DNA of 64,000 nucleotides from Pseudonocardiales bacterium (lineage in GTDB: Bacteria > Actinomycetota > Actinomycetes > Mycobacteriales > Pseudonocardiaceae), in assembly GCA_023252195.1 (NCBI GenBank), contig JAHEXI010000001.1, positions 1-64,000 of the forward strand. The letters run 5' to 3'. How positions within the stretch are numbered: the first letter of the stretch is position 1; the number at the start of each line of letters is the position of its first letter. Below the pieces are notes generated by a model. It saw nothing but the letters and a program-made list of their open reading frames with translations, was not told the origin of the DNA and made no database searches. The position numbers and the translations under genes are program-made. This document shows positions 13,340 to 31,243 of this stretch, one piece after another.

Positions 13340-14329
13340 TCAGGACCCATTGGCGATGAAGCCGTGCTGCCCGAGCCAGTCGCGGGCAACCCGGCGCGGC
13401 GATCTGCCCTCTGCGGACCGCTGCCGGTTCAGCTCGGCCATCACCTCATTGGTCAGGGCCGCGGAGATCGGGGCGAACGCCTTGGCGATGTTCGGGTTGC
13501 GGTCGTAGACCTGCTTTCGCATGGTGGGCGCCGCGTTGTACAGCGGGTGGTACAGCTTGTCATCGGCCAAGACTGTGAGCCCGAGTTCGGGGATGCGACC
13601 GTCGGTGGTGTACACCTCCCCGAACAGGCACTCCTTCTGGTCGGCGGTGGCCTGATAGATGGATCCGGCCTGCAGCACCTTGAGCCCGTCCGGGGGCACC
13701 TGAAAGCCGTAGGAGCGTTGCAGACCGGGGAATCCGTCGTCGCGGTTCTGGTACTCGGGCTCGATGCAGAGATTGCCGGGTTGACCGGAGCGGATGTATG
13801 CGGCCATGTCTGACAGCGTCCGCAGCCCTAGTTGCTGGGCGCGCTGCGTTTTGATGGCGAAGGCGTAGGTGTTGTTGAACGGGGTCGGCGCGAGCCAGAC
13901 GATGTTGTTGCGGGCCAAATCCTGTTGCTTGACCGCCTCGTACTGCGCCTTGCTGTCCTGGATCGGCTTCTGACCCAGGAAGGTGACCCAGGCGGTACCG
14001 GTGTACTCCCAGTACAGATCGATGTCACCGCTGAGAAGCGCGTGGCGGGTCGCGTCGGTGCCGCCGATATTGCATTGGTCGATGGCCCTGGCGTTGACCG
14101 ACTCCAGCACAGCGATCGCGATCTGGCACAGCACCAGCTGCTCGTCGGCGAGCTTGCCGCCCACGGTGTAGGACTGGCCCGCCAGGTTGACCTGGTGGGC
14201 GAGGCTACCCGCCTCGGCTTGCGGGCCGCTGCTGTTGAGCCCGGCGCAGCCGGCTACCAGTGCGGCGGCCACCGCCAGTGCCGTCAAAACGGCGGCTAGC
14301 ACCCCAGCGGCGGGTGGTCCGGATCTCAC
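13340..14329 (-). CDS. glycine betaine/choline-type ABC transporter substrate-binding lipoprotein (copy 1)
   Basis: A 329-residue OpuAC/ProX-type solute receptor. The N-terminus carries a lipoprotein signal with lipobox VAGC at about residue 28. The body shows the quaternary-amine family signatures: VGGKLADEQLVLCQI, LLSGDIDLYWEYTGTAWVTF, LAPTPFNNTYAFAIK and VYTTDGRIPELGLTVLADDK. It is the last gene of a four-gene operon; its GTG overlaps the TGA of the upstream permease gene. A close paralogue lies at 18277-19260. Exported and anchored outside the membrane, it would deliver compatible solutes (osmoprotection) to the transporter; the exact ligand cannot be read from sequence. Confidence 0.9.
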   Translation of the reverse strand: MRSGPPAAGVLAAVLTALAVAAALVAGCAGLNSSGPQAEAGSLAHQVNLAGQSYTVGGKLADEQLVLCQIAIAVLESVNARAIDQCNIGGTDATRHALLSGDIDLYWEYTGTAWVTFLGQKPIQDSKAQYEAVKQQDLARNNIVWLAPTPFNNTYAFAIKTQRAQQLGLRTLSDMAAYIRSGQPGNLCIEPEYQNRDDGFPGLQRSYGFQVPPDGLKVLQAGSIYQATADQKECLFGEVYTTDGRIPELGLTVLADDKLYHPLYNAAPTMRKQVYDRNPNIAKAFAPISAALTNEVMAELNRQRSAEGRSPRRVARDWLGQHGFIANGS

Positions 14330-18276: not shown

Positions 18277-19260
18277 TCAGGACCCTCTGGTGATGAAACC
18301 CTTCTGCGCGAGCCAGTCGCGGGCGACGTCGCGTTGCGACTTGCCCTGCGCGGACTTCTGCCGGTTCAGCTCGGACATCACGTCGTCGGTCAGGGCCGCG
18401 GAGATCGGTGCGAACACCTTGGCGATGTTCGGGTCCCGGTCGTAGACGTCCTTGCGGATGCTGATCGCCGCGTTGTAGAGCGGGTGGTAAAGCTTGTCGT
18501 CGGCCAGCACTGTCAGCCCGAGCTGCGGGATGCGGCCGTCGGTGGTGAACACCTCCCCGAACAGGCACTCCTGCTGGTCGGCGGTGGTCTGGTAAATCGC
18601 ACCGGTCTGGAGCACCCGCAGTCGATCCGGTGGGACCTGGAAGTTGTAGGTCCGCTGCAGGCCGACGAGTCCGTCGTCCCGATTCTGGTATTCGGTCTCG
18701 ACGCAGAGGTTGCCCGGCTTGCCGGAGCGGATGTACGCGGCCATGTCCGACAGCGTTCGCAGTCCGAGCTGTTGAGCCCGCTCCTTCTTCACCGCGAAGG
18801 CGTAGGTGTTGTTGAACGGCGTCGGTTGCAGCCAGACGATCTTGTTCTCGGCAAGGTCCTGTTGCTTGACCGCGTCGTACTGCGCCTTGCTGTCGTGGAT
18901 CGGTTTCTGCTTCAGGAAGGAAACCCATGCGGTACCGGTGTACTCCCAGTACATACCGATGTCGCCGCTGAGAAGCGCCTGGCGGGTCGCGTCCGTGCCA
19001 CCGACATTGCACCGGTCGGTGACCTTGGCGTTGACCGACTCCAGGGCGGCGACGGCGACCTCGCACAGCACCAGCTGCTCGTCGAAATCCTTACCGCCCA
19101 CAGAGTAGGACTGGCCTTGAAGGTTGACCTGCTGGGCGAGGCTGCCGCTGTGCGCGGACGGGCCGCTGCTGCTCAGCCCGCCACACCCGGCGACCAAGGC
19201 GGCGAGGGTCACCAGTGCGGCCATGGACCGTCGGCGACCGAACAGAGATATCGATCCCAT
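18277..19260 (-). CDS. glycine betaine/choline-type substrate-binding lipoprotein (copy 2)
   Basis: 327 residues and clearly paralogous to the protein encoded at 13340-14329, with most of the alignment identical. It has a lipobox LVAGC near residue 25. Shared landmarks are SVGGKDFDEQLVLCE, LLSGDIGMYWEYTGTAWVSF, LQPTPFNNTYAFAVK and FTTDGRIPQLGLTVLADDK. It has its own GAGGGAACCAG ribosome-binding site before the ATG at 19260 and no permease or ATPase next to it. It therefore probably serves the same membrane complex, perhaps with a different ligand range, or is a recent duplicate in the process of divergence. Confidence 0.88.
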   Translation of the reverse strand: MGSISLFGRRRSMAALVTLAALVAGCGGLSSSGPSAHSGSLAQQVNLQGQSYSVGGKDFDEQLVLCEVAVAALESVNAKVTDRCNVGGTDATRQALLSGDIGMYWEYTGTAWVSFLKQKPIHDSKAQYDAVKQQDLAENKIVWLQPTPFNNTYAFAVKKERAQQLGLRTLSDMAAYIRSGKPGNLCVETEYQNRDDGLVGLQRTYNFQVPPDRLRVLQTGAIYQTTADQQECLFGEVFTTDGRIPQLGLTVLADDKLYHPLYNAAISIRKDVYDRDPNIAKVFAPISAALTDDVMSELNRQKSAQGKSQRDVARDWLAQKGFITRGS

Positions 19261-28438: not shown

Positions 28439-28584
28439 TAAGTGGTGGCGTGAAAAGTTAGGTGCCTGCCATGTTGTCAGCCGATCTTCTGCTCGCCAAG
28501 GTGAGATCTATCCGAATCGGCAATGCCGTCGATGAGGTGATCTGTTCCGGGCCCCTGCGGGGGTCACTGTGGAGGAGGATCTGT
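28439..28584 (+). promoter_or_regulatory. upstream region and leader of peptide gene 1
   Basis: TAAGTGGT (28439) and TAGGTGCC (28459) are 20 bases apart and begin 146 bases before the ATG. They are followed by a TTGTCA and a leader with AATCGGCAA, GAGGTGATCTGTTCC, a CCC/GGG hairpin and the GGAGGAGGAT ribosome-binding site. This is the most divergent of the four copies. Confidence 0.5.
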
Positions 28585-28821
28585 ATGTCTGACGCATTGA
28601 GTTTCGCCGAGATGGAGGGGCAGTACCTAGAGCTGCTCCCGGCGCGCACAGTCATGTCCATGTTCACCGCCGATGGCTGCTGCGGCGGCGGTGGCGACGG
28701 CGACGGCGGTAAGGGTGGCAACGGCCAGGGCGGCATCGGCATTAACGTCCTGAGCGGCATCGGCATCCTGGGCACTGGTGTCGCCAGCGCGGGTAACGGC
28801 ATCGGCGGCAACGGTGGGTAG
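28585..28821 (+). CDS. glycine-rich small peptide, array member 1
   Basis: 78 residues. The N-terminal 27 residues (MSDALSFAEMEGQYLELLPA then RTVMSMF) are shared with members 2-4 and look like a leader or recognition segment. The rest is very glycine-rich: a CCGGGGDGDGGKGGNGQGG stretch, then the conserved core INVLSGIGILGTG, then NGIGGNGG. It has no signal peptide or membrane helix. Uniquely it has adjacent cysteines at 32-33. The ATG has a GGAGGAGGAT site 5-6 bases before; the longer frame from 28462 lacks one. Function unknown; a ribosomally made peptide precursor or a secreted matrix peptide are possibilities. Confidence 0.75.
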   Translation: MSDALSFAEMEGQYLELLPARTVMSMFTADGCCGGGGDGDGGKGGNGQGGIGINVLSGIGILGTGVASAGNGIGGNGG

Positions 28822-28843
28822 TACTTAAGCGGGTAATGGCTCG

Positions 28844-29000
28844 CGGTGCCGTTGGCTAGGGAACGGCACCGGTATGGCCAACGAAAGCGCTCATGGTGGT
28901 GCTGGGGCAGCCGACTGCAGCGTCAGTCGTGTCAGTACCGTCAAATGAGCGGTGCCGTTGGTTGTAAGGAGGGGTGGCCCGAGGTGGCCACCCCTCCTTA
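28844..29000. terminator. two hairpins downstream of peptide gene 1
   Basis: Hairpin 1: CGGTGCCGTT at 28844-28853 pairs with 28862-28871 around GGCTAGGG. Hairpin 2: 15-base perfect arms TAAGGAGGGGTGGCC at 28965-28979 and 28986-29000. Both types recur after each peptide gene. Confidence 0.7.
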
Positions 29001-29261
29001 CTTATGTGGCCCCCTCCGAGGTGGCGCCAAAAACTACGTAGCTATGGCACTGGCGGTAGGTGGAGACGAGGAGAAACGCCGCTACGGTCTAGGTGCGCTC
29101 GCGGGCGAGGCCACCCGCGCCAGCCGCGGAGTCAAGGGCGGTGTCAACGCGCTGTGGGCGATGCTCCAAGATTGCCCTGAACTGCGCATATGGTTGAGTT
29201 GGGGGACTGCTTACCGCCGACTTCTCACCGCAGCTGAGCAGGTCGACGCCGGGATCATACC

Positions 29262-29408
29262 TAGGTAATGCGGACATGATTTAGGTAGTGAATTGATGTT
29301 GCCATAGGGCGTTGTGCTGGCCATGGTGTAGGTAAGCCAAGTCGGCAACACCGCCGAGGAGGTGCGCTGTTCCCGGCCCATTGGGGGCCTCTTTTGAGGA
29401 GGATATGC
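29262..29408 (+). promoter_or_regulatory. upstream region and leader of peptide gene 2
   Basis: TAGGTAAT (29262) and TAGGTAGT (29282) are 20 bases apart, starting exactly 147 bases before the ATG. Then come TTGCCA, the conserved AGTCGGCAACACCGCCGAGG and GAGGTG, the GGCCC-loop-GGGCC type hairpin, and the GAGGAGGATATGC ribosome-binding region. Confidence 0.5.
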
Positions 29409-29636
29409 ATGTCTGACGCATTGAGCTTTGTTGAGATCGACGGCCAGCACGTGGAGCTGCTCCCCGCACGTACTGTCATGTCGATGTTCCACGCCGGCGG
29501 CCAGGGTGGCAACGGTGGCAACGGCCAGGGTGGCGTAGGCGTCAACGTCCTGAGCGGCATCGGCGTCCTGGGCACCGGCGTGGCCAGTGGTGGCGACGGC
29601 GCCGGCGGCAACGGCGGCAGCGCGGACAGCGACTGA
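29409..29636 (+). CDS. glycine-rich small peptide, array member 2
   Basis: 75 residues. It begins MSDALSFVEIDGQHVELLPA then RTVMSMF, followed by HAGGQGGNGGNGQGG, the core VNVLSGIGVLGTG, and a tail GGDGAGGNGGSADSD. It has no cysteine. Members 2 and 3 differ only at the two residues after the GVLGT core (GV versus GS context), showing a recent tandem duplication. The start has a GAGGAGG site. Same interpretation as member 1. Confidence 0.8.
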   Translation: MSDALSFVEIDGQHVELLPARTVMSMFHAGGQGGNGGNGQGGVGVNVLSGIGVLGTGVASGGDGAGGNGGSADSD

Positions 29637-29669
29637 GCCAACGGCTGAGTTGAGTCGGTAGTGGCGCGT

Positions 29670-29786
29670 GGTGCCGTTGGCTAGGAAACGGTATCGGCGT
29701 GACCGGCGGCATTCCGTCAGCGATCGAGTAATCGCGCGGTGCCGTTGGTAACGGAGGGGTGGCCAGTAATTGGCCACCCCTCCGTT
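29670..29786. terminator. two hairpins downstream of peptide gene 2
   Basis: Hairpin 1 (about 29671-29694) is a weakened version with G-U pairs. Hairpin 2 has 16-base perfect arms, 29750-29765 and 29771-29786 (AACGGAGGGGTGGCCA), loop GTAAT, ending in TTT. Confidence 0.7.
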
Positions 29787-29819
29787 TGCATTTCAGCGGA
29801 TTGAGAGCCGACGCGGAAG

Positions 29820-29849
29820 TAGGTAGTCATCGCGCGGTTTCTAAGCAGC
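29820..29849. promoter_or_regulatory. distal paired motif before peptide gene 3
   Basis: TAGGTAGT (29820) and TAAGCAGC (29842) are 22 bases apart, matching the spacing of the pair at 28149/28171 and close to that at 30545/30568 (23 bases). Probable second regulatory site of the unit. Confidence 0.4.
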
Positions 29850-29937
29850 GCCGCAGCCGCGTCTCAGATTGTTCAGGTCAGCTGACGTGATGAGTCGTTC
29901 TCCGCAGCAGATGGACAGCGCAACCGCCGATTATAAC

Positions 29938-30084
29938 TAGGTAATGCGGGGATGGTTTTACGTGGTCGATGGGGGTTGTCGTAAGCGCTTTCGCTGGCCA
30001 TTATATAAGTAAGCCGAATCGGCAACACCGTCGATGAGGTGTTCTGTTCCCGGCCCGTTGGGGGCCTCTTTGAGGAGGATATGC
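29938..30084 (+). promoter_or_regulatory. upstream region and leader of peptide gene 3
   Basis: TAGGTAAT (29938) and TTACGTGG (29958) are 20 bases apart, again exactly 147 bases before the ATG. TTGTCG (29976) and an AT-rich TTATATAAG (30001) could be promoter elements, with spacing longer than ideal. The leader is nearly identical to those of units 2 and 4. Confidence 0.5.
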
Positions 30085-30312
30085 ATGTCTGACGCATTGA
30101 GCTTTGTTGAGATCGACGGCCAGCACGTGGAGCTGCTCCCCGCACGTACTGTCATGTCGATGTTCCACGCCGGCGGCCAGGGTGGCAACGGTGGCAACGG
30201 CCAGGGTGGCGTAGGCGTCAACGTCCTGAGCGGCATCGGCGTCCTGGGCACCGGGTCTGCCAGTGGTGGCGACGGCGCCGGCGGCAACGGCGGCAGCGCG
30301 GACAGCGACTGA
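30085..30312 (+). CDS. glycine-rich small peptide, array member 3
   Basis: 75 residues, almost identical to member 2 throughout: the same N-terminal segment with ELLPARTVMSMF, the same glycine-rich spacer, the same VNVLSGIGVLGTG core and SADSD end. The main change is GSASGGDG in place of GVASGGDG. The 5' leader and ribosome-binding site are also conserved. Selection at the peptide level is suggested because the flanking DNA outside leader and hairpins differs more than the coding part. Confidence 0.8.
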   Translation: MSDALSFVEIDGQHVELLPARTVMSMFHAGGQGGNGGNGQGGVGVNVLSGIGVLGTGSASGGDGAGGNGGSADSD

Positions 30313-30343
30313 GCCAACGGCTGAGTTGGGCCAGTGATGTCCA

Positions 30344-30511
30344 GCGGTGCCGTTTGCTAGGGAACGGCACCGCTTGACCGGCGATGCTGCGGGCGGTGCT
30401 GGGGCAGCCGACTGCGATGCAGTCGTGCAGCGCCGCCGCCCGACCAGTTAGAGGTTGGGTGCGATGTCGTCGGTAACGGAGGGGTGGCCAGTAATTGGCT
30501 ACCCCTCCGTT
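30344..30511. terminator. two hairpins downstream of peptide gene 3
   Basis: Hairpin 1: GCGGTGCCGTT (30344-30354) with AACGGCACCGC (30363-30373), perfect over 11 bases. Hairpin 2: 16-base arms at 30475-30490 and 30496-30511 with one G-U position, ending in TTT. Confidence 0.7.
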
Positions 30512-30544
30512 TATAATTCGGCGGGTTTAGAACTGGCGCGGAAC

Positions 30545-30575
30545 TAGGTAGTCACTGCGTTGGTTTCTAAGTAGT
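30545..30575. promoter_or_regulatory. distal paired motif before peptide gene 4
   Basis: TAGGTAGT (30545) and TAAGTAGT (30568), 23 bases apart, in the same relative position as the pair before gene 3. Confidence 0.4.
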
Positions 30576-30662
30576 GATGCAACAGCGTCCCAGCTTGCGC
30601 CGGTCAGCTGGGTAATGAGTCGTTCTCTGCAGCAGCTGGACAGCGCAACCACCGATCATAGT

Positions 30663-30809
30663 TAGGTGATGCTGAGACGTTTTTACGTGGTCGATGGGGT
30701 TGTTATAAGTACTTTCGCTTGGCCATTGTCAAGTAAGCCGAATCGGCAACACCGCCGAGGAGGTGTTCTGTTCCCGGCCCGTTGGGGGCCTCTTTTGAGG
30801 AGGATATGC
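30663..30809 (+). promoter_or_regulatory. upstream region and leader of peptide gene 4
   Basis: TAGGTGAT (30663) and TTACGTGG (30683) are 20 bases apart, exactly 147 bases before the ATG as in units 2 and 3. TTGTTA (30700), the GCCGAATCGGC mini-palindrome, GAGGTGTTCTGTTCC, the GGCCCGTTGGGGGCC hairpin and GAGGAGG follow. Confidence 0.5.
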
Positions 30810-31055
30810 ATGTCTGACGCATTGAGCTTTGTTGAGATCGACGGCCAGCACGTGGAGCTGCTCCCCGCACGTACTGTCATGTCGATGTTCCACGCCGGCG
30901 GCCAGGGTGGCAACGGTGGCAACGGCCAGGGTGGCCTAGGCATCAACATCCTGAGCGGCATCGGCGTCCTGGGCACCGGGTCTGCCAGTGCTGGCGACGG
31001 CGCCGGCGGCAACGGCGGCAGCGCGGACAGCGGCGGCGGCGGCTGCGGCTGCTGA
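30810..31055 (+). CDS. glycine-rich small peptide, array member 4 (Cys-ended)
   Basis: 81 residues. The first 44 residues equal members 2 and 3, then LGINILSGIGVLGTGSASAG as a conservative variant core. The C-terminus is extended and ends SGGGGCGC, with two cysteines in a C-x-C, unlike SADSD in members 2 and 3. Last copy of the array; the tRNA-Leu gene follows on the other strand. The start has GAGGAGG before it. Function unknown. Confidence 0.8.
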   Translation: MSDALSFVEIDGQHVELLPARTVMSMFHAGGQGGNGGNGQGGLGINILSGIGVLGTGSASAGDGAGGNGGSADSGGGGCGC

Positions 31056-31074
31056 GTTGGGCCAGTGATGTCCA

Positions 31075-31243
31075 GCGGTGCCGTTTGCTAGGAAACGGCA
31101 CCGTGTGAACCGGTGGCGCTGCGGGTGGTGCTGGGGCAGCCGACTGCAATGCAGTCGTCCAGCGCCGCCACCGATCAGTCAGATGATTGGGTGCGGTGTC
31201 GTCGGCAGTGTAGGGGTGGCCAGCAACAGGGCCGCCCCTCCAC
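31075..31243. terminator. two hairpins downstream of peptide gene 4
   Basis: Hairpin 1: CGGTGCCGTTT (31076-31086) with AAACGGCACCG (31093-31103), loop GCTAGG. Hairpin 2: about 31207-31221 with 31229-31243, imperfect, same GGGGTGGCC core. Confidence 0.65.

Follow-up and report, generated by a model that had tools for sequence, protein, structure and literature searches.

Small glycine-rich peptides dispersed through a soil actinobacterium share a leader that points to a distant intramembrane protease as their partner

The window analysed here, a stretch of 64,000 nucleotides from a Pseudonocardiales bacterium, carries four tandem genes for small glycine-rich peptides that begin almost identically and end differently, which raises the question of what the shared N-terminus serves. 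The sequence-only reading took it for the possible leader of ribosomally made peptides (RiPPs) that are modified by an enzyme encoded elsewhere. The four peptides are members of a 21-copy family of small Gly-rich peptides dispersed over the genome of this soil actinobacterium, and their leader appears to have evolved together with a distant protease; this suggests an uncharacterised system for processing and exporting peptides that is spread across the actinobacteria.

All four open reading frames are present on the + strand, in line, at 28585..28821 (78 aa), 29409..29636 (75 aa), 30085..30312 (75 aa) and 30810..31055 (81 aa), each with an ATG start preceded by AGGAGGA. The near-identical N-terminus noticed earlier corresponds to residues 1–27 (28585..28665 in gene 1, with equivalent segments starting at 29409, 30085 and 30810 in the others), delimited by the profile match and a drop in conservation, and contains the motif ELLPARTVMSMF at residues 16–27. 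Leader DNA is identical among genes 2–4 (profile match E = 6.1e-20), while that of gene 1 (E = 1.9e-17), the most diverged of the four, shows 10 synonymous and 5 non-synonymous differences from it. The repeat units lie 824, 676 and 725 bp apart and their coding parts are 74–93% identical (87–93% between the units of copies 2–4), so we regard the genes as tandem duplicates. Their C-terminal residues are G, D, D and C, with a Cys–Gly–Cys end in gene 4; in relatives the last residue is G, S, D or another.

Flanking the array are a 2'-5' RNA ligase-like gene and, on the other side, a tRNA-Leu/fhaA–pstP–rodA–pbpA–kinase block, the names being read from sequence. Two relatives in the genus, L021 and L029, have three and two copies, respectively, again downstream of these neighbouring genes, with the fhaA side visible too in one of them; a transposase-like gene lies between both peptide copies of L029 (L029:9089-10582). 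About 65 nt before the start of gene 1 stands an inverted repeat, CCGAATCGG (28512..28520; equivalents upstream of genes 2–4 at 29337, 30014 and 30738), which is conserved in a cross-genome upstream alignment and is a candidate regulatory site, either an operator or a leader RNA. It is retained in VLSGIG-type copies of several genomes, CTACTGATTGCC and CACCTTTCCTAGGAGGAT being common to other copies instead. Two kinds of hairpin, recognised by reading the sequence and as repeat families, follow the genes and may act as terminators: GGTGCCGTT/AACGGCACC on the + strand after gene 1 (28845..28870; family D5), with equivalents after genes 2–4, and AACGGAGGGGTGGCC/GGCCACCCCTCCGTT, on the same strand after gene 2 (29750..29786; families D7 and D9), with equivalents at 28966-28999, 30475-30511 and about 31212-31243. 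Elsewhere in the window, one transporter region encodes two similar putative osmoprotectant-type binding lipoproteins (13340-14287 and 18277-19224), which probably arose by duplication.

The ratio of synonymous to non-synonymous change, named with the sequence-only reading as a possible ground of refutation, demonstrates coding selection. Over 68 copies the leader has a pN/pS of 0.275, compared with 1.01 and 2.29 in the frames shifted by +1 and +2, and the third codon position varies most in the peptide genes. Among 16 copies of the same core type, pN/pS is 0.221 in the leader versus 0.614 in the tail; column information is 2.5–4.3 bits at residues 1–27 and 2.5 or below thereafter. The supposition of a conserved N-terminus and a variable C-terminus was thus well founded, with purifying selection on the leader, a relaxed tail and a sharp border at residue 27/28. 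In the seed alignment M1, L17, P19 and R21 are invariant, and the leader motif of the family is ELLPxRTxM/L. Tails consist of 38% Gly, 12% Ala and 7% Asn; Cys is scarce in them, and none of the residues open to modification is invariant. They are of the VNVLSGIGVLGTG type in the window, and of INLLNLNLFGDQTNSAG, FYTEGDVYN and non-Gly types elsewhere, the leader being the sole part that these dissimilar classes have in common. A genetically encoded precursor with a conserved leader and a variable core is a RiPP-type feature, and it is found here.

With the leader profile, 21 matches were found at 15 places in the source genome (4.74 Mb, 48 contigs), and 43 of 390 Pseudonocardiaceae genomes, Pseudonocardia species among them, match as well, so the leader is not a chance resemblance. 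Every genome of the genus (11/11) has the peptides, with 4–27 matches each, and several of the orphan loci are syntenic between its species; those close relatives that have named records are MAGs of uncultured Pseudonocardiales and Pseudonocardiaceae. When the whole peptide was used as query, 50 other genomes of the family and order gave no match. A phage or plasmid origin was considered and dropped, the plasmids and phages searched having no match. The statement that no characterised family has this motif agrees with the searches made: there was no Pfam hit and no relevant NCBIfam hit, the PDB sequence search returned composition-driven matches only (best E = 0.047), and neither ELLPARTV nor LLPARTVL nor any of the other leader motifs turned up in the literature searched.

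No modifying enzyme is adjacent to the four peptides in the window, as had been remarked, nor is a protease gene, and the listing of conserved neighbours that was then advised locates a partner outside it: gene calling and clustering identified a membrane protein of ~440 aa as the gene most often beside the peptides, at 28 of 58 loci in several genera. In the source genome its gene lies on contig C5 (L010:11242-12552), downstream of four peptides, and a second copy on contig C44 adjoins one peptide; a search with the daptide protease gave these two as the only strong places. The peptide beside the second copy (L019:8025-8540) carries an extended GGDK repeat that is cut off by an assembly gap (N). 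An apparent peptide–protease fusion in L116 was a frameshift artefact and was left out.

This protein is predicted to be an intramembrane HExxH protease related to the daptide RRE–site-2 protease and to YydH/LiaK. It matches the NCBIfam daptide intramembrane metalloprotease NF041824 with E = 1.6e-28 and 99.9 bits, the match covering its N-terminal domain, and YydH/LiaK with E = 4e-10; homology to the MpaP family is thereby indicated at a bit score far under the equivalog cut-off of 300. Across 23 protease sequences HExxH (H194, E195, H198) and an RxDGYY motif are invariant, so that the catalytic motif is intact. A PDB sequence search with the protease returned nothing. AlphaFold modelled the whole protein with a pLDDT of 61 and the N-terminal domain with low confidence (pLDDT 57), in the order beta-beta-beta-alpha-alpha-alpha, a topology that would fit an RRE; Foldseek on this N-terminal model gave as best hit the RRE–leader complex 5v1u (TbiB1) at a weak E = 0.19, whereas VIA-align ranked other winged-helix folds above RRE, and the structural matches listed offer no evidence against other folds. 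The domain is described here as RRE-like from its homology to the daptide RRE–protease.

Leader and protease occur together with few exceptions. A clade-I protease is present in 43/43 leader-positive Pseudonocardiaceae genomes (in G343 as fragments on two contigs) and in 2/347 leader-negative ones, giving a Fisher p of about 2.5e-55 in a calculation that ignores shared ancestry; one of the two protease-only genomes, G321, encodes a diverged LELLPARTLL peptide beside its protease. Sampled over the class, proteases of the same family were found in 58/395 genomes and 23/138 genera, and small ORFs beside most of the distant ones carry other leaders (LLPxRExL, ALPxKEV, E[EQ]LPDRExM and EVLPxRxxL), all five variants being built on LPx[R/K]. 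On a tree of 74 proteases the five leader types, which were defined after the sequences were seen, each fall on one clade, requiring the minimum of 4 changes, compared with a mean of 32.4 when labels were shuffled (0/200 as low as 4); 11 rows were left unlabelled by the patterns, several of which have visible peptides missed by the patterns or distance limits, and vertical co-inheritance alone would also yield this distribution. Around 122 unrelated genes leader types 2–5 never occurred and type 1 was hit 19 times, a control that is uninformative for type 1 because its set included loci fetched for holding peptides.

In other actinobacterial families (L133:627-1310, L136:2974-3729 and L139:515-1245) the protease is preceded by three small peptides of the LPDRExM type, whose cores read NANxAxPVNAAVAxNVLSD, and after it comes a secreted protein containing repeats with CxxC, making an uncharacterised set of its own. 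At L114:10655-11314 and L150:2872-3576, proteins of 210–390 aa combine the leader ALPDKEVxSLLDLN with a pair of AAPIDLAVAANANVAAPIDAAV-like blocks, and beside them is a protease with a long C-terminal extension (about 800 aa).

The explanation that we favour, with a probability of roughly 0.7, is that the four ORFs encode precursor-like peptides, in which a leader of 27 residues is followed by a rapidly evolving Gly-rich tail; the leader would dock on the protease, and the tail would be cut and released outside the cell. The E-L-L-P-x-R-T segment would be held by the RRE-like N-terminal domain, and the site-2-type HExxH protease encoded on contigs C5 and C44 would cut close to where the leader meets the tail, at about residue 27, setting the tail free at or across the membrane. 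The majority of copies, the four in the window included, would then be orphan precursors on which one or two proteases act in trans; for the window this is suggested by the shared leader, since no protease is encoded there.

What becomes of the tail is addressed by the other neighbours. In the source genus and in Pseudonocardia a DUF2807 lipoprotein (E = 8e-30), which has an extension of 40–96 residues and 35–50% Gly directly after its lipobox, is encoded beside the protease, and a LuxR-type ATPase regulator of 850–900 aa also recurs; in another genus (g25), a secreted Gly-rich protein is encoded between divergent peptides. Among the 76 neighbours of 17 protease-I loci, GerE/AAA_16 and DUF2807 are the only ones seen more than twice, and neither beside the protease in that set nor beside the peptides at 58 loci does a tailoring enzyme recur. 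The expectation that the peptides are modified therefore finds no support so far, the sole conserved enzyme being an intramembrane protease. The product is probably extracellular and may assemble at the cell surface, given that the gene beside the protease encodes a lipoprotein or secreted protein whose Gly-rich composition matches that of the tails. A surface role for the tails, argued from these Gly-rich companions and from the missing tailoring genes, is the least certain step, and we put it forward tentatively, at somewhat below even odds.

The same neighbourhoods weigh on the strongest competing account, a classical RiPP pathway in which a tailoring enzyme from another part of the genome is recruited by the leader as well and the tail is modified before the protease releases it as an antimicrobial or signalling peptide. 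A variable tail and many paralogues would suit a diversifying set of products, and related RRE–site-2 protease or M50 systems, the daptides and epipeptides, yield modified, bioactive peptides (PMC10036551, PMC10885120); against this, no tailoring enzyme recurs in the neighbourhoods examined and the Gly-dominated, Cys-poor tails hold no invariant residue to modify, which makes such a pathway unlikely, though it is the alternative that survives best. It is also conceivable that the N-terminus is a permanent docking or anchoring segment of intracellular or membrane-associated low-complexity proteins, with the protease regulating their turnover. Site-2 proteases often clip membrane-bound regulators, and cleavage of the peptides is itself a step that we infer; however, dissimilar tail classes have the leader alone in common, and export fits better with multiple copies and with secreted or lipoprotein companions, so we consider a permanent anchor improbable. 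That the family is a dispersed selfish or repetitive element, alike through recent duplication rather than function, might be read from the identical leader DNA and closely similar units of copies 2–4, but is largely refuted by codon-level selection, which acts in frame across species, and it fits poorly with the syntenic orphan loci and with the lack of plasmid or phage matches, leaving it a negligible chance.

Leader docking followed by cleavage and export, the reading that we prefer, assigns a specific protease to an orphan family of peptides, with leader and protease co-varying over many actinobacterial families, and makes a widespread but unnamed peptide system directly testable. Were the tails unmodified, RRE-type leader docking would be used in the export of structural peptides; were they modified, this would be a new class of RiPPs, its large set of products being served in trans. 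A broader and more speculative proposal, to which we give about one chance in three, is that RRE-fused site-2 proteases are an export and maturation route across the actinobacteria that would read the LPx[R/K] leader as an address tag, would require no chemical tailoring and in the source genus would carry a large, dispersed Gly-rich structural repertoire to the cell surface, RRE-type docking then serving secretion rather than natural-product chemistry.

Among known systems the daptides (MpaA precursors, MpaP protease) offer a close comparison, their protease being an RRE fused to a site-2 protease and their precursors having a conserved N-terminal ELExMEAP motif (PMC10036551). Both systems have a related intramembrane HExxH protease, with an N-terminal region that is putatively of the RRE type here, encoded beside several small precursors whose conserved N-terminal motif contains E-L. 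Here, in contrast, the leader is ELLPxRT, the peptides end without a C-terminal Thr and have a Gly-rich rather than an aliphatic tail, most precursors are orphans, and the protease scores 99.9 bits against the 300-bit cut-off. None of the daptide genes (oxidative decarboxylase, aminotransferase, alcohol dehydrogenase, methyltransferase or DUF-RRE) recurs among the 76 neighbours of 17 protease-I loci, and a daptide identity was rejected because the C-terminus, the leader motif and the tailoring genes all fail to agree. The epipeptides (YydF/EpeX) likewise have an M50-type intramembrane protease (YydH/LiaK/EpeP; NF058609), for which a role in both cleavage and export of the peptide has been proposed (PMC10885120). 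They differ in precursor sequence, which is unrelated, in lacking the extra N-terminal RRE-like domain of the protease described here, and in their radical SAM epimerase, no member of the radical SAM family recurring among the same 76 neighbours. The organisation of the family resembles that of the prochlorosins, in which one LanM serves many dispersed precursors that have one conserved leader and variable cores and mostly lie far from the enzyme. The shared enzyme here would be a protease, beside which no lanthionine synthetase recurs at the 17 protease-I loci, and the tails are poor in Cys; the arrangement itself, in which numerous precursors with a common leader and differing cores are mostly encoded at a distance from the enzyme, is alike.
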